Positions 10,548 through 34,762 of a DNA stretch of 47,475 nt are shown piece after piece. The DNA is from a virus. The translations under genes and the position numbers were made by a program. Where the stretch lies: IMG/VR virus record IMGVR_UViG_3300017708_001763, positions 1 through 47,475 of that record. The stretch is one strand, 5' to 3'. The notes beneath the pieces are model-generated. The model had not been told where the DNA came from, made no database searches, and worked only from the letters and a program-made list of their open reading frames with translations. The first letter of the stretch is position 1. The number at the start of each line of letters is the position of its first letter.

Positions 10548-11151
10548 CCCTAATATCACCAGGAATCACTAACCTCTCTTCTTTTCTCTCAGAGATCTTT
10601 TGAGTAAAATGCCCAATCTTACTTGGAAAAATTACAATACTTCCTTCAATGGGTGTAATACCATAAACATTGCAGTTATATTTGTTATATTCAGTAATTA
10701 GATTTTTCTTAATTGACTCAGTAAACATATCTCCAACGCATTCATTGGGATTTTTTTCTTGAGCAATGCAAAACCTATCAGATGTCTCTCCAGTATTTAC
10801 ATAGTAAACAAAACTCAAATCAGATGCATTGTGATTATGAGGTTTAACTGAAGGTGTGGCATCATCCTTATGATACCCAACCCAGGATTTAATGATGTGA
10901 TAGTCTAACTTTGAATGATCAACTTTTAAATAATCAAAATAATTATCTACATGTTGCCGAAGTTCTTCAAAAAACGGTTTGCATGATACCTTTTGATGTG
11001 CAAAAATTCTTCCAGAATATTCTGGACTTTCATTTTGATATCCATCAAACCAATAATCACGAAGTTCATCAATATGCTTTTTGATTTCTTCATGACACTC
11101 TACCATTCCCTGGTACACAATCGTAGGGAATGCTTCATGTACTCGATGCAT
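10477..11151 (-). CDS. 2OG-Fe(II) oxygenase (PF13759-like)
   Basis: A 224-residue protein of the cyanophage-type 2-oxoglutarate/Fe(II) oxygenases. Residues 103-120 (KPHNHNASDLSFVYYVNT) match the conserved HxH region, and the distal His181 (PSKIGHFTQ) and Arg201 (GDIRVTL) complete the usual jelly-roll signature. The ATG overlaps the stop of the upstream fibre-like gene as TGATG, so it is translationally coupled to the gp5/spike/fibre operon and is probably expressed late. The last 24 codons overlap the convergent glycosyltransferase-like gene. The substrate is unknown. Confidence 0.8.
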   Translation of the reverse strand: MHRVHEAFPTIVYQGMVECHEEIKKHIDELRDYWFDGYQNESPEYSGRIFAHQKVSCKPFFEELRQHVDNYFDYLKVDHSKLDYHIIKSWVGYHKDDATPSVKPHNHNASDLSFVYYVNTGETSDRFCIAQEKNPNECVGDMFTESIKKNLITEYNKYNCNVYGITPIEGSIVIFPSKIGHFTQKISERKEERLVIPGDIRVTLNPQNPDYHQGSTHPSQWLEL

Positions 11152-11798
11152 CAGATACCATTAATATTATATTCTCTATTATCTCCTGGATAGTCCTCTG
11201 GTGTCAAGCCCTCATACTCAGGAATATTTTTAGTTGTATCCTTACGTTCACCAAATACAACATAATCACAATTAATACCAGTTCCTGCATTATTTTTAAT
11301 AATAATCCTATTTCCCCACTCAATCTTATAAACAAATAATTCTTGCCAATGTCCATTGGGAGTTAGATTAACAGATATATTATCCATATCAACTAAATCT
11401 TTCCAATAATAAGGAAGTTCAATATAAGATTGATTGACTAATTTACCTTTAATATACACATCCGCAGTTGGTCCCTCAAGAGTAATATACCTAAGACGAT
11501 GATTTTCTTTAGATGGGTGCTTAATGTCAAATGATTTTTTAGCATCCCAAATTGCAGATTTTGCATTTAGAGAGGATACTGCAGAACTTACAATATCTGA
11601 TGCCTGAACAATGGCATCTGCCTTAATATTACCACATAATATATTGTAATGAATCCAAGGTGTACATGCCTCAGCAGGATAATTTGGATCACCAGTTGTT
11701 GCTTTTAACAAATAATCATATTTGCTTGAAAAAGGACCACTGATACCTTCATCTGCACATCCCGTGGTATTACTTGCCTGTGGAATAAACTCTGCCAT
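11151..11798 (-). CDS. Virion structural protein, paralogue B (215 aa)
   Basis: The C-terminal 120 residues share a clear pattern with the next upstream gene: AKKSFDIKHPSKE, LRYITLEGPTADVYIKGKL, ELPYYWKDLVD, then a VxFGER segment and a YEGLTPEDYPGDN ending. The same pattern is familiar from tail-fibre-like proteins of cyanomyoviruses. The unique N-terminal 85 residues are Ala/Ser-rich. It is coupled to the 2OG oxygenase downstream (TGATG) and 2 nt from the paralogue upstream. A trimeric fibre or baseplate decoration role is inferred. Confidence 0.65.
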   Translation of the reverse strand: MAEFIPQASNTTGCADEGISGPFSSKYDYLLKATTGDPNYPAEACTPWIHYNILCGNIKADAIVQASDIVSSAVSSLNAKSAIWDAKKSFDIKHPSKENHRLRYITLEGPTADVYIKGKLVNQSYIELPYYWKDLVDMDNISVNLTPNGHWQELFVYKIEWGNRIIIKNNAGTGINCDYVVFGERKDTTKNIPEYEGLTPEDYPGDNREYNINGI

Positions 11799-11800
11799 AA

Positions 11801-12571
11801 TTACCTCTTAGTATCATAATGATATCCAGATACCGAATATTCATCGTTATTACCTGGATAGTCTGCTGGGGTTGTACCCTCGTATTCTGGAATTAGCTTC
11901 TCACCATCTACTCGCTCACCATAAACATGATAATGGCAGTTAATAGGTCTGGAAGAGTGTAGAAAAACTTTATTGTCTTCAATTTTATGAACTATAATAT
12001 CTTGATGAATTCCAACTGGAGTAATAGATACTGTAATTGAATCAGGATCTACCAATTCTCCCCAATATTCTGGAAGTTCAATTACACTATCATTCTTCAA
12101 TTTACCTCTTATGTATACGTCATTTGTTGGTCCTTCAGGACAAGTGTGACGCAATCTCCAACCTTCCTTTGTTGGATGAGGAATATCAAAATTCTTTTTA
12201 GCAGATAATATATGTCCACCACAGCGAGACATAACTTCTCCCTGAGCAATAATATTCATCCCAGCATTAATGCTCTGAGCAGTATCTACCACACCCAAAA
12301 ATGCTGCTGGTCCATCGACAGCGAGTGAATATGGATTATTAATTCCAGTACATAGAGCACCAGGAATAATTGGTGGAATTATCATGTCAGGATTCTGACA
12401 TGGACCAATCATTACAGTCGCTGTTAAGAATGGCGGAAGAGCCCCAAAAATAGATGGACCCTCCATAAAAGATCCTCCTCTAATCTGTAGAGGACCCTTG
12501 CCCAATACGAGACTAGGATCGCCCTGACCGACATACAAAGTCTTTTTAACTTCTAAATCGGGTACTTTCAT
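11801..12571 (-). CDS. Virion structural protein, paralogue A (256 aa)
   Basis: A paralogue of the following gene: AKKNFDIPHPTKEGWRLR, EGPTNDVYIRGKL, ELPEYWGELVD, VYGER and YEGTTPADYPGNN occur in the same order and spacing. The N-terminal 120 residues differ and are Gly/Pro-rich. The start overlaps the stop of the spike-like gene by 4 nt (ATGA), so the two are coupled. The order gp5, spike-like, paralogue A, paralogue B suggests that these proteins attach at the baseplate. Confidence 0.65.
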   Translation of the reverse strand: MKVPDLEVKKTLYVGQGDPSLVLGKGPLQIRGGSFMEGPSIFGALPPFLTATVMIGPCQNPDMIIPPIIPGALCTGINNPYSLAVDGPAAFLGVVDTAQSINAGMNIIAQGEVMSRCGGHILSAKKNFDIPHPTKEGWRLRHTCPEGPTNDVYIRGKLKNDSVIELPEYWGELVDPDSITVSITPVGIHQDIIVHKIEDNKVFLHSSRPINCHYHVYGERVDGEKLIPEYEGTTPADYPGNNDEYSVSGYHYDTKR

Positions 12572-13170: not shown

Positions 13171-16119
13171 TTAATATCCATATCCACCACCTGATGGAGG
13201 TGATGGTGGTGGTGCCGATGGAGGTGATGGTGGTGGTGCTGATGGAGGTGATGGTGGTGGTGCCGATGGTGGTGCCGATGGTGGCGGTGCTGATGGAGGT
13301 GCTGATGGAGGTGCAGGTGCAGATGAAGTTGTAGATGATTCAGGTGCAGATGCATATGATTGTTCAGAATTAGTATCTGTCATAGGATCAGAGAACTGCT
13401 CAGATTGTCTAGATGCTGTACCGTAAGTAGATGAAGTACTAGTTTCTTGACCTGACATTGTTGAGACACCTTGCCCCATATTCTGAGCAAGAACTCCATT
13501 TCTCCAAACAAATCTTTCGTCAGAGTATTGCAAACTTTCAGATGCGGTTTCGTAAATATATGGATGAGGTCTACCCTGATAAGATTCATGGGTTCTACCA
13601 GTCATCTTTCTCCCCATATGAGTATGGAATGGTCCATAATATGGTTGTCCATTAACAAATCCAACAAAAGATTGACCTTCAATATTTCCAACACAATCAA
13701 CAACAGATACAACTGATTTAAGAATATCATCACCGTAAACTGTCCCTTCTGGATCATCACCAATTCTCTCTACACAAAGAACTGGATTTAAAACAGCATT
13801 ATATCCAGTTTCAGAATCAATATAAATTTCTGGTCTCTCTACAAATCCTCTACCTGGTTTTAATATTTCCAGGGAATCCAAAACCCCAAAAGGTCCAAAT
13901 TTAGGAATTACTTCCGCACCATTGCTTGGTTTGATAACAATTTTATCCCCATCGGAGTAATTCATCCCAGCACTTTCAATATCAATAGCACAAAGAACAA
14001 GAATAACGGGATAACTACCAATATTTAATGTTGGGAAGGCATTTATATCAGTCTCACCATTTAAACCAGTACCTGGTATCTTAGTTATCCCCCTAAGTCT
14101 TCCCAACGTTTCATCACTATTCTCACCAATCCCAAGACCGTTAATACCACCACCATCAGAATTTGCGTTTCCGCCAGATCCCCCAGGATAAATTCCAGGA
14201 GTAATTATGACTCCACCACCAGGAAAACCACCAATAATATTCCGATCATCTGGGGTAATAATAAGGTCTCCTCCACCAGATCCCGAATCACCACCTCCTC
14301 CATCATCATCACCACCATCACCACCATCTCCTGGTGTCACTGGATTAATAATATCATTGCTAGTTCCTGGTGGATATTTTTCCCACTTACCGTCTCCCCT
14401 CTTAATTATAGTCCAATCTTTTGGTGCCCAAGTTCTATTATCTCCACCAAGATCACCATTAGGTCCAGGCAAATATCCAGATCCTGGATCTTCGATTATA
14501 ACTCTTCTAATTCGTTTTGTTGGAACACCACCCTCACCAATTCCACCATCAGGCTCCATTTCAACTCTAGCTCTACTACCACCACCTTTACCACAATTAT
14601 CAGATATATCTACAAATGGTGCTTTTGAATATCCAATCCCAGGTGCTATCAAATCAACTCCAAGAAGATCTCCAGCAGCACTAACTATTGCATTGCCTCT
14701 TCCTCCAGATCCTCCACCACCCCAAAAAGTTACTTGAGGTGGACCACAAAATACAGGACCAACATTACACCCATTTGCAGAATTTACTGCACTATCAATT
14801 AACTCACCAAAATCAATACTAGCAATATTATCAATATCAACCAAATTTGCAGCATTTGCAGCTAGACTTTTTGCACTACTAATGATCCCTTCTATGTTAA
14901 AAGTAGTTGGGGGTTTTGATCCTTCAAAAATATTCCACTCTTTTGTTTCTGGACATTCTTGGTCTTCTTCACATGCAAGAAAACCTGCAATTTGACCCAA
15001 AATTCCCAGAATTCCATTTACAAGACTAAATGCCCCACCAATCAAAGAAGATAAAGAACCAATAATGGAATCAATAGCACCACTTAATGCTCCTAAAGTG
15101 CTACCAAGAAGAGATCCAACAAAGTTCTGAACGGCACATGCAGGTACATTAATATACCTATCCAACATTTTACTAAGGAAATTGCCAACAAGACCTTTCA
15201 GATTGCCGATCATCTTATTAAAAAGACAGACAATTAACTCAATAATAGCATCCTTTGCAACCTTTGCCTTGTCCCTGTCTGGTGGATTAATTAACTCATA
15301 TAGTTTTTTAGTTTGTTTATTTATCTCCTCCTCAACAAATTTTCTAATGTTTTTAAATAAGTCTTTTAACCCAAGTGACACAAACTCAGACGCTGTACTA
15401 ATCTGTTCCTGAATCCATTCTTGCTTCTCAGAAATCCACCCCTGAGCAGCATCCTGCCATGTATTAAGTTGGTTAGTTGCTCTCTCAATCTTTGCAATCA
15501 ATTCTTGCATAGACTTCTGAATAGAAGTCATAGGAACCTTTTCACAGGCAGTCGGAGATTGTAAAGCATATGCAGGTTCCTGCATCATAGTGGTATCCGA
15601 CAAAGTTGACATATTAGGATAAAATATGCCCTCAAATAAATTTGTTTGAAAATTTGCTATAGAATACCCAGGAGCTCTATCACTGGATGTATCAAATCCA
15701 CTAAAAGGATCAAAACCCCTATTATCTCGTTGTTTTCTGGGAAGAAGCAGATGGTCATTATTACCAATCGTTCCAATATGCATTGGACCAGATTTGGTTA
15801 CAGGATCAATCCACATCCCCCATATTTGTGAACCCTGAGTTATACCAATTGACCCACCAGTTCTTTTATGTCCACTTCCAAGACTACCAAGATTTATTTG
15901 CACCCAAGGAAGTTGTGCATCAGGATATTCGGTTTTGTCCGCAGGATGAACTCCTTCAATACGAACCTTAACTCTAAATCCATAATTTTTTATAGCCTCT
16001 CTCCCCTCCAACAGTTCACCATCTCTCTCCCAGGTCTCTCTAGGAGCGACAATACCCTGCCAATAGTTGTAAGGTTGATCAGATGTAAAAAGTGGATTAA
16101 ATATACTTCCTTGGGGCAT
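13171..16119 (-). CDS. 5: gp5-like baseplate hub protein (982 aa)
   Basis: The N-terminus (GFRVKVRIEGVHPADKTEYP, then LPWVQINLGS and GSQIWGMWIDP) is the OB-fold region of the T4 gp5 family. Instead of the T4 lysozyme domain there is a helical region (about 200-320), a small-residue hydrophobic stretch (about 350-400), GxGY-type beta modules, and the segment GPFHTHMGRKMTG near residue 835 that is usual in cyanophage gp5 proteins. The last 60 residues are Pro/Ser/Ala repeats ending GGGYGY. The protein is far longer than T4 gp5 (575 aa). It follows the CP12-like gene by 5 nt under one late box and heads a run of spike and fibre-like genes. Confidence 0.82.
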   Translation of the reverse strand: MPQGSIFNPLFTSDQPYNYWQGIVAPRETWERDGELLEGREAIKNYGFRVKVRIEGVHPADKTEYPDAQLPWVQINLGSLGSGHKRTGGSIGITQGSQIWGMWIDPVTKSGPMHIGTIGNNDHLLLPRKQRDNRGFDPFSGFDTSSDRAPGYSIANFQTNLFEGIFYPNMSTLSDTTMMQEPAYALQSPTACEKVPMTSIQKSMQELIAKIERATNQLNTWQDAAQGWISEKQEWIQEQISTASEFVSLGLKDLFKNIRKFVEEEINKQTKKLYELINPPDRDKAKVAKDAIIELIVCLFNKMIGNLKGLVGNFLSKMLDRYINVPACAVQNFVGSLLGSTLGALSGAIDSIIGSLSSLIGGAFSLVNGILGILGQIAGFLACEEDQECPETKEWNIFEGSKPPTTFNIEGIISSAKSLAANAANLVDIDNIASIDFGELIDSAVNSANGCNVGPVFCGPPQVTFWGGGGSGGRGNAIVSAAGDLLGVDLIAPGIGYSKAPFVDISDNCGKGGGSRARVEMEPDGGIGEGGVPTKRIRRVIIEDPGSGYLPGPNGDLGGDNRTWAPKDWTIIKRGDGKWEKYPPGTSNDIINPVTPGDGGDGGDDDGGGGDSGSGGGDLIITPDDRNIIGGFPGGGVIITPGIYPGGSGGNANSDGGGINGLGIGENSDETLGRLRGITKIPGTGLNGETDINAFPTLNIGSYPVILVLCAIDIESAGMNYSDGDKIVIKPSNGAEVIPKFGPFGVLDSLEILKPGRGFVERPEIYIDSETGYNAVLNPVLCVERIGDDPEGTVYGDDILKSVVSVVDCVGNIEGQSFVGFVNGQPYYGPFHTHMGRKMTGRTHESYQGRPHPYIYETASESLQYSDERFVWRNGVLAQNMGQGVSTMSGQETSTSSTYGTASRQSEQFSDPMTDTNSEQSYASAPESSTTSSAPAPPSAPPSAPPPSAPPSAPPPSPPSAPPPSPPSAPPPSPPSGGGYGY
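13193..13264. repeat. Tandem 24-bp repeat encoding SAPPPSPP
   Basis: Three nearly identical 24-bp units (13193-13216, 13217-13240, 13241-13264; one C/T difference) followed by degenerate partial units. They encode the proline-rich tail of the gp5-like protein. Slippage could change the tail length between strains. Confidence 0.9.
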
Positions 16120-16124
16120 TTAAA

Positions 16125-16352
16125 TCAATCCTCGTATACCAAACATTCTGGTTCTGATGGATTTGCATCACAATATAATTCTAGAGGTGTGGGATCATGA
16201 TGATCTCCTGCTTCAATCTCTTTTTTATGATGTTCCACGTAATCTTCCAATTCATGCAATTCACCTTCAATATGGCGACGTTGATTTGGAGAGATCATAG
16301 GATTGTCTAAGATCTCCTTATCCTTTTCAATATGCTCTTCGATACTTTCCAT
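16125..16352 (-). CDS. CP12-like C-terminal-domain protein (75 aa)
   Basis: The final 24 residues (DPTPLELYCDANPSEPECLV and the YED terminus) match the C-terminal GAPDH-binding loop of CP12, the redox switch that inhibits the Calvin cycle enzymes GAPDH and PRK: the C-x8-C pair (Cys61, Cys70), the NP-x-x-x-EC core and the final YED are all present. The N-terminal CP12 cysteine pair and AWDxVEEL core are absent, replaced by a charged coiled-coil helix (residues 1-48). A perfect TATAAATA late box lies 22 bp upstream, and gp5 follows after 5 nt, so it is expressed with virion genes. It could inhibit host GAPDH late in infection, or be a structural protein with a chance tail; the former is inference. 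Confidence 0.6.
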   Translation of the reverse strand: MESIEEHIEKDKEILDNPMISPNQRRHIEGELHELEDYVEHHKKEIEAGDHHDPTPLELYCDANPSEPECLVYED

Positions 16353-16373
16353 AATAGTTGATGGAGTTAATGT

Positions 16374-16381
16374 TATTTATA
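16374..16381 (-). promoter_or_regulatory. Late promoter box (TATAAATA)
   Basis: An exact T4 late -10 box on the minus strand, 22 bp before the CP12-like start. It should drive the CP12-like, gp5, spike-like, fibre-like and oxygenase genes as one late unit. Confidence 0.8.
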
Positions 16382-16448
16382 GGGATTAAAGATCAAATTT
16401 TTGTATTTGTCAGGATTAAAGTTAAGGTCATTAAATCAAGGAGATAAA

Positions 16449-17876
16449 TCAATATTTACCAGATTGACCAGTAAAATCTTTAATGTTAAAGTTACCCGAA
16501 GATCCAATTAGATTTGCCCAATTACTTTGTGATTCAGATGAAGAATTTGAAGTGTTATTTTTCTTTGGTACTCTACCATAAGAATCTCGAATTAAATGCA
16601 TCTTAGTCAAAAGAGTCTTTGATGTCAAGTGAGTGCAAATATCACATATTATATACAATCCACTCAATTCTTTATCAATGCCAGTTTGATCTTTTGAACT
16701 TTGTTCTGGAAAATCACAATGTACCAATTGTCCCGCCCTTAAAGAATAATCACCTACGACAACAATTTCCACACTTAATGAGAATAATTTATTATAAGTC
16801 ATTGCAGACTGCAAAATAACCTCTTCTAAGATAAGATTTGAGTCCCTCTGTTTTTCAATCTGTTCTTTAACATTTCCATCTGGAAATTCTCCCTTAGCGT
16901 CTACTCTTGTAAATCTTCTAGAAGCAAGTTGACCATCTGTTGCAAATTCAGACTCAAATTCATCATTTAATTTTGCAACTTCTGAACCACCATGAATCTT
17001 TTGCTCATCACTACCAATCTCTTGAGATTTTGTATTAAAAATGTGGGTATATGTATCAAATGTCTCCAATTTAGATCCATAAGTACCAGCAACAAGATTT
17101 TGCCTCACATTTACAGTCTTATTAGCGTCAAAAGTAATTATCTTTCCGTCGTATCCACCAGGCAATTCTGTTGTAGAGTTATATATAAATGACTTATAGT
17201 TTTCCTCCCCATCATCGAATAAAGTATCTATTGATCTAAAATTAAATCCTTCATAAGTTTCGTAAATCAGATATCCAGCACTGCTTTCAGATGATTGAGA
17301 TACTGCTTTTGTAGCAATTTCTGCTAATAGAGTAAATGGTTTCTTACCTTTACCAGCAAAATTGTGAACATTTGCGGTTGCATCCAGATTAATATTTTTT
17401 TTAGTTTTTAAATTTTCATTTAGAATTAAAGCTACAGACTGACTAATTTCTCCATCAAATCGTTTATACACTTCACATGCTAACAAATCATTAGCAATCA
17501 ACTCTCTAGACACAAGATCCAGAGTAAATATAGTGTTTTCTGCAGAAGATATTATGTTACGTATTTCTAAAATATATAGATCATTATCTCCAGCAAATTT
17601 CAGTTTATTTCCTAAGTTGTCCTCAATCGTAAGATTGACTTTCTCAGATCCTGTAAGTTTAAGATCTTGAAGAATGGTAATGCTATTCTTTTTCCCATCA
17701 CTAGTATTACCAGTATCAACTATAACAATACTAAACCTGACTGAACTATCCAATATACTCTCATAATAATCACAAAGAACTACACCAGCAGAAACATCAA
17801 CTATATCTCCAGATTTTGATGTAATCTCAAGTTTACTAATATTACCAGATTGTGATGCTTGAAGTGGAGTTGACAT
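16449..17876 (-). CDS. Baseplate hub protein, gp27-like (475 aa)
   Basis: The N-terminus (LEITSKSGDIVDVSAGVVLCDYYESILDSSVRFSIVIVDTG pattern, cut here by description) and the layout of two beta-barrel-like halves suggest a gp27/VgrG-type hub that binds gp5; the late part LRAGQLVHCDFPEQ followed by SGLYIICDICTHL fits the hub barrel seen in such proteins. Sequence similarity to T4 gp27 is not directly obvious, so the call rests on pattern and position: directly downstream of the M23 hub protein and before the gp5 unit. It starts 2 nt after the stop of the upstream gene. Confidence 0.55.
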   Translation of the reverse strand: MSTPLQASQSGNISKLEITSKSGDIVDVSAGVVLCDYYESILDSSVRFSIVIVDTGNTSDGKKNSITILQDLKLTGSEKVNLTIEDNLGNKLKFAGDNDLYILEIRNIISSAENTIFTLDLVSRELIANDLLACEVYKRFDGEISQSVALILNENLKTKKNINLDATANVHNFAGKGKKPFTLLAEIATKAVSQSSESSAGYLIYETYEGFNFRSIDTLFDDGEENYKSFIYNSTTELPGGYDGKIITFDANKTVNVRQNLVAGTYGSKLETFDTYTHIFNTKSQEIGSDEQKIHGGSEVAKLNDEFESEFATDGQLASRRFTRVDAKGEFPDGNVKEQIEKQRDSNLILEEVILQSAMTYNKLFSLSVEIVVVGDYSLRAGQLVHCDFPEQSSKDQTGIDKELSGLYIICDICTHLTSKTLLTKMHLIRDSYGRVPKKNNTSNSSSESQSNWANLIGSSGNFNIKDFTGQSGKY

Positions 17877-33712: not shown

Positions 33713-34762
33713 TTACCTAGAGGGATGATTTTTATTTAGAACATGATGCCACAAAAACTTAGCAGCACCTATTGAGATGCCGCCATCATGGCATACGGGA
33801 TCGATGTAAAAGTTCACATCTGGAAACTCTTTCAAGTATTCATAATTATTCACGCAGTTTAAAAAATAACCGCCTGACAATACAATATTTTTTGTTTTGG
33901 TTTTACTTAACAATTGCTTAATCAATCGAATTGTATGATCTCTTGTCTCTTCTTGTGCTTTTTTAGCCAAATCAGAGGCAGCTTGACCTTCAATGTTTGG
34001 AGGTTCATCATCATACGGTGTGTATTTTGAGTTTCCAGCCAATGTCCTATATGTATTTAATATTTTTTGATTGTCAGTAATCCAAGTTTCAGTTTCGTTG
34101 TCATACTTAAACCAATCATCGTCAAACCTATCAGAATTACCATAAGAAGATAGACCCATAACTTTTCCTGGTTCTAAACCAAGAACTCCCTGAAGAGTAT
34201 TAAAGATCCACCCACAACTTATAGTAGAAGACATTACATCAGTAGCATTTAATTTATAATTAGTATAATCTACTTCAAGTGCATCCCATCCATAATAAAC
34301 CTTTTTAAGAACCTCATACTTACCTTCAGTAAAGTAGTACATAGATTCTCCTTCTTTACGATCAAGGAATGAGACTCCCCCTCCGTCAAGAATCAAAGCA
34401 GCAGATTCATTAAATCCAGAACCGTAGAATGCACTACAGGCATGATAAAGGTGATGTTCCCACTCATAATGTATCTTACCAAAACTTAAATTATATTTTG
34501 ATAGATCACGAATAATACTATCAATTAAATCTGAATCATTATCACAATGTTCACCTGCCTTGCCCCAAGATGCAAATATAATATGATCTAGGTGAGTAGT
34601 ATAATTTTTAATGTCCCCTAAACACCTCTTTTCATCATGATATTTCCACTCTTCTTCCTTGTTACCACTATACCTATCATCTTCCATATAATATACCACC
34701 TCACCATCATGCAAGAGAGATATTGATGCATGATGTGATATATTGATTCCAAGAATATACAT
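33713..34762 (-). CDS. Carbamoyltransferase N-terminal domain only (349 aa)
   Basis: This matches the Kae1-like N-terminal domain of NodU/CmcH/TobZ O-carbamoyltransferases: MYILGINISHHASISLLHDG, the metal-binding WEHHLYHACSAFYGSGF (His103, His104, His107), LILDGGG, GKVMGLSSYGN, and VLSGGYFLNCVNN. The YrdC-like C-terminal domain (GQRALGNRSI motif) that makes carbamoyl adenylate in such enzymes is missing; the protein ends at the domain boundary. It may need activated carbamoyl groups from the full-length homologue at 41955-43619, or may have another role. Confidence 0.82.
   Translation of the reverse strand: MYILGINISHHASISLLHDGEVVYYMEDDRYSGNKEEEWKYHDEKRCLGDIKNYTTHLDHIIFASWGKAGEHCDNDSDLIDSIIRDLSKYNLSFGKIHYEWEHHLYHACSAFYGSGFNESAALILDGGGVSFLDRKEGESMYYFTEGKYEVLKKVYYGWDALEVDYTNYKLNATDVMSSTISCGWIFNTLQGVLGLEPGKVMGLSSYGNSDRFDDDWFKYDNETETWITDNQKILNTYRTLAGNSKYTPYDDEPPNIEGQAASDLAKKAQEETRDHTIRLIKQLLSKTKTKNIVLSGGYFLNCVNNYEYLKEFPDVNFYIDPVCHDGGISIGAAKFLWHHVLNKNHPSR

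Follow-up and report, generated by a model that had tools for sequence, protein, structure and literature searches.

A standard cyanophage CP12 gene between a tail-protein gene and gp5 in a T4-like cyanomyovirus fragment

Phage CP12 is studied as one of the clearest examples of viral redirection of carbon flow in a photosynthetic host, and a short reading frame with a CP12-like end placed directly before the baseplate gene gp5 raises the question of whether its product serves host metabolism, serves it only late in infection, or belongs to the virus particle. The first-pass annotation of this locus had described a shortened CP12 tied to virion genes, acting either as a late metabolic switch or as a particle component. 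The window, that is, the whole stretch of 47,475 bases that was analysed, is a T4-like cyanomyovirus record, a fragment. Besides the genes given below it encodes head closure, a single-strand DNA-binding protein and PhoH, and beyond the tail protein, upstream in transcription order, lie genes for cell-wall-lysin-like proteins, a baseplate hub protein and a tail tube protein. The features of the locus are as follows.

13171..16119, minus strand: gp5, baseplate hub / tail lysozyme, 982 amino acids (phrog_1922, E=4.1e-60), 5 nt downstream of cp12
16125..16352, minus strand: cp12, 75 amino acids, cyanophage CP12 (T4-GC337 / phrog_627)
16125..16190, minus strand: predicted GAPDH-binding tail, residues 55-75 (TPLELYCDANPSEPECLVYED) plus stop, aligning to the CP12 peptide in 3zdf and to CP12 in 6gfo
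16374..16381, minus strand: late-type (T4-like) promoter box TATAAATA, 21 nt before the cp12 start
16385..16413, minus strand: possible sigma-70 promoter, weak, CTGACA - 17 nt - TTTAAT (10/12 consensus positions), just upstream of the late box
16449..17876, minus strand: tail protein, T4-GC15 type, 475 amino acids (phrog_350, E=1.3e-74), directly upstream of cp12 with a gap of 96 nt

Every feature listed for the interval 16125-16381 was found, though the strand, which had been left unstated, is the minus one; the plus strand of the interval is full of stops. Translation from 16352 to 16125 gives MESIEEHIEKDKEILDNPMISPNQRRHIEGELHELEDYVEHHKKEIEAGDHHDPTPLELYCDANPSEPECLVYED, in which a charged helical front precedes a C-x8-C loop formed by C61 and C70, the only cysteines of the 75-residue protein, both C-terminal, so that the N-terminal pair is absent as described. 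The loop carries the NP-x3-EC core (NPSEPEC), the protein ends in YED, and the cysteines stand in the CxxxPxxxxC arrangement of the CP12 family (C61-D-A-N-P-S-E-P-E-C70). The reported flanks are likewise in place, with the gp5 start at 16119, 5 nt past the cp12 stop, and the TATAAATA box at 16381..16374, 21 nt ahead of the ATG.

The Pfam CP12 family (PF02672) matches residues 2-74 with an E-value of 1.5e-11 and 45.3 bits against a cut-off of 22.7, which is the single PF02672 match within the window, and phrog_627 spans the protein end to end (E=1.3e-44). A profile made only from host picocyanobacterial CP12s scores the protein at 82 bits, and at E<=100 it listed neither another ORF of the window nor any of 2000 shuffles of the protein. 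When phage and host sequences were combined into one profile and run against the PDB, the best seven matches were all CP12, one of them deposited as CBS-CP12 and the other six as CP12 chains or peptides; next came, weakly, plant GAPDH-B (2pkq, E=0.35), whose C-terminal extension resembles CP12 (PMC9406205); that extension carries a CP12-like tail as here, but fused to a GAPDH subunit. A tblastn search returned 371 phage records at E<=10, of which 363 match over 80% or more of its length, each matching record at one place and with no second phage CP12 of this kind found in the same genomes. Identity is highest to S-MbCM6 (96%) and amounts to 77% for S-SCSM1. The matching records are labelled CP12, carbon metabolic regulator or hypothetical protein, and the full-length matches include the CP12s of S-ShM2 and S-MbCM6 labelled T4-GC337, in line with orthology to annotated phage CP12. 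A scan of viral contigs with an approximate freshwater CP12 query gave no match.

Comparison of folds is less telling than comparison of sequences. The AlphaFold2 model, with a mean pLDDT of 93.5, has a confident N-terminal helical hairpin, more short helices and a tail that is looser, and it matches CP12 in 6gfo weakly (Z 4.6, rmsd 5.1, 68 residues aligned, 28% identity), with 6gfo sitting among unrelated helical hairpins in the structural comparison. Foldseek against the PDB found nothing at E<=0.001, and CP12 was not among the matches listed. Sequence evidence, in the form of the Pfam and PHROGs matches, the profile matches to solved CP12 and the invariant cysteines, nevertheless supports both the CP12 identity and the predicted GAPDH-binding tail that the annotation had proposed. 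The alternative that the protein is not a CP12 at all, its charged helix and its short cysteine loop being products of convergence, would account for the absence of two canonical CP12 features, the AWD_VEEL core and the N-terminal cysteines. It deserves almost no credence, since the protein aligns over its full length both to host CP12, at 49-59% identity, and to solved CP12, since shuffles never match the host profile (0 of 2000), and since host CP12s are without the same features too. Among T4-like cyanophages this is the standard CP12, related to the Calvin-cycle inhibitor of host picocyanobacteria, and as such already known.

Host sequences also decide the question of length. The 60 distinct CP12s compared, from Prochlorococcus, Synechococcus and the Cyanobium type, all have 72 residues and two C-terminal cysteines; an N-terminal cysteine pair occurs in none of the 60, and the AWD_VEEL core in 0 of 76 distinct phage and 0 of 60 distinct host sequences. 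The term "shortened" therefore does not apply, as 75 residues is full length for the type and the host proteins are without the same features, and a review counts cyanophage CP12s among the exceptions that are without some canonical features (PMC3906501). Like the window protein, host picocyanobacterial CP12 of the Prochlorococcus PMM0220 type has the C-x8-C tail, no N-terminal cysteines and no AWD_VEEL, with homology over the full length, but at 72 residues it is without the linker of the phage proteins (KEIEAGD region). Canonical CP12 from Thermosynechococcus and plants (6gfo, 3qv1, 6kez) shares the C-terminal GAPDH-binding tail and the helical N-terminal part with the window protein and differs in having AWD_VEEL and usually the N-terminal cysteine pair. 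In a quick tree, many forks of which are poorly supported, one branch parts host from phage CP12.

C61, P65, E69 and C70 are invariant in 76/76 distinct phage and 60/60 distinct host sequences; one ORF filter demanded the cysteine motif, yet every phage locus passed it, and three host loci that were missed showed the motif when read directly. The annotation had named failing conservation of the cysteines and of the EC-YED end in relatives as evidence against its reading; this check does not refute it. Two unusual forms turned up among the loci compared. The CP12 of Prochlorococcus AG-402-N21 (L125:3001-3234) is of host type but with a phage-type linker, KEEIEAGDHHDP; some of its flanking sequence matches other host loci, and the gene may be a host-phage recombinant or an ancestral form. 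P-SSM2 (L085:3809-4075) encodes, away from gp5, a very divergent 88-residue protein whose CP12 tail reads LEIYCDNHPDADECKVYDD and whose annotation is just conserved hypothetical.

Constraint on cp12 extends beyond the tail. Among relatives of the same layout, median identity to the window is 91% for CP12 against 32% for gp5 and 32% for the tail protein. Within cp12, pN is 0.12 and pS 0.70, and the median pS is 0.69, such that synonymous sites are near saturation, and pN/pS is 0.18 for residues 1-18, 0.20 for residues 19-49 and 0.14 for residues 50-75. The whole of CP12 is under strong purifying selection, not the GAPDH tail alone, and because constraint reaches the N-terminal residues, the N-terminal part matters too. 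A recent move of just the cp12 gene from phage to phage was considered as a source of the 91% identity between 32% flanks; with synonymous sites near saturation such a transfer is unneeded, and the high identity is due to strong constraint rather than to recent exchange.

The linkage to virion genes noted in the first-pass annotation is real, widespread in cyanophage loci and already published (PMC3037559). Tail proteins lie directly upstream of cp12 in 75 of the 100 loci with enough upstream sequence, and gp5 follows within 3 kb in 54, and within 150 bases in 33, of the 74 with enough downstream sequence, frequencies that are not unbiased, as most loci were picked by similarity to the window protein. 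The exact order of the window (tail protein, cp12, gp5) recurs in S-SSM7, S-RSM4, S-SCSM1 and the freshwater phage DSL-LC02, and a tail protein of the T4-GC15 type adjoins cp12 also in S-ShM2, S-SSM7, S-RSM4 and S-SCSM1. In S-MbCM6 and S-ShM2 cpeT and other genes intervene between cp12 and gp5, whereas none do in the window, and in P-HM2, MED4-213 and S-TIM5 cp12 lies among talC, psbA or other metabolic genes. Sullivan et al. (2010) found T4-GC337 (cp12) in 15 of 16 cyanomyoviruses, either near psbA or near gp5 (PMC3037559). Some loci of the survey came from records labelled as cellular. A 189-kb contig of the Prochlorococcus single cell AG-418-C09 (L107), the size of a cyanomyovirus genome, carries a phage-type CP12 and is probably a phage sorted with the cell. 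Phage CP12 loci, mostly with tail/gp5 flanks, also occur in assemblies labelled Nonlabens, Rhodopirellula, Euryarchaeota and Anaerolineales (L099-L106), contigs that are probably phage placed in the wrong bin.

The tight and conserved linkage with the tail protein and gp5 is what speaks for CP12 as a particle component, which would either sit at the baseplate hub, within it or on it, or be packaged, and would enter with the genome to block GAPDH from the first minutes of infection. A protein of 75 residues yields few tryptic peptides, and small proteins can escape proteomics; candidate peptides of the window CP12 are EILDNPMISPNQR and HIEGELHELEDYVEHHK. However, in S-SCSM1, which has the identical gene order, mass spectrometry identified 45 virion proteins, described in the text as structural, unknown or one of three that are named, and the text does not mention CP12 (PMC9602691). 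The GenBank record of the same phage marks the neighbouring tail proteins as virion and leaves CP12 unmarked, the virion table of S-CREM2, with 52 proteins, is also without CP12 (PMC10665884), and cp12 is found away from virion genes as well, near psbA or talC. A particle component thus appears very improbable, as CP12 goes unreported in an S-SCSM1 virion whose neighbouring tail proteins are reported. The slot between tail genes is shared by many cyanomyoviruses and is not evidence of particle membership.

The locus is best explained as encoding an ordinary T4-like cyanophage CP12, which very probably inhibits the Calvin cycle during infection by binding GAPDH under disulfide control. In such a scheme C61 and C70 would form a disulfide loop, freeing the acidic YED end to bind GAPDH, and binding would lower the activity of GAPDH and perhaps of PRK. 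Inhibition of the Calvin cycle would spare NADPH and ATP, and carbon would shift to the pentose phosphate pathway, feeding phage nucleotide synthesis. We infer that the window CP12 acts in its host as CP12 does generally: GAPDH is the partner of the C-terminal CxxxPxxxxC end, and the oxidised canonical protein forms a ternary complex with PRK as well (PMC9406205). Cyanophage infection is accompanied by high cp12 expression, a doubled NADPH/NADP in the light and inhibition of the Calvin cycle (PMC5082946); a direct biochemical test of phage CP12 on GAPDH was not found in the papers searched. As AWD_VEEL and the N-terminal cysteines are absent, PRK recruitment by the window CP12 may be weak or different.

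The late switch, one of the two functions first suggested, would mean that a gp5-linked CP12 is made from the late promoter together with the baseplate-hub genes and inhibits late, unlike in phages with cp12 near psbA and talC. The late promoter reported for cyanomyoviruses is NATAAATA (PMC2984593), and the TATAAATA box of the window stands at -29 of cp12. Across the window TATAAATA occurs twice against 5.8 expected, i.e. not above chance, but upstream of cp12 the motif is strongly enriched, ATAAATA lying at -14 to -45 in 16 of the 42 loci with tail/gp5 context that remained after dereplication, against an expected 0.2. The window has no further NATAAATA from the stop of the tail-protein gene to the start of gp5, and cp12 and gp5 therefore probably share the box, which would fit joint late expression. 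The motif is, however, retained equally well at loci in other contexts, without gp5 as neighbour (9 of 12, same interval, 0.04 expected), so that the box appears to belong to cp12 itself. Furthermore, cp12 of P-HM2 has CATAAATA upstream at -32, and its transcripts nonetheless fall into the middle expression cluster, among the highest in the light (PMC5082946). Middle expression in cyanomyoviruses is thought to be due to overlapping early and late promoters (PMC2984593), and the window has its sigma-70-like site next to the box. The description of the gene as late is hence plausible from the box and unproven, and a specifically late action of the inhibitor seems rather doubtful. The window sigma-70-like site was not listed by a stricter scan, and a search for a conserved sigma-70 promoter ahead of cp12 in relatives gave no convincing enrichment over shuffles. 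A Syn9 transcriptome was not found in the literature searched. The timing of cp12 in gp5-linked phages is a clean and cheap question, as P-HM2, the phage measured, has cp12 elsewhere.

The window copy adds no new kind of CP12. What the survey adds is modest: the slot beside tail genes is widespread and reaches a freshwater phage, the late-type box occurs in both gene contexts, and purifying selection acts on the whole protein.

Two minor observations concern other genes of the window. Two separate genes, at 33713-34762 and 41955-43619, match phrog_1601 (Nol-like carbamoyltransferase family), one of them over just part of the profile. Downstream of gp5, the adjacent genes at 11151-11798 and 11801-12571 both match phrog_17490, a family of unknown function, and are likely a tandem duplication.
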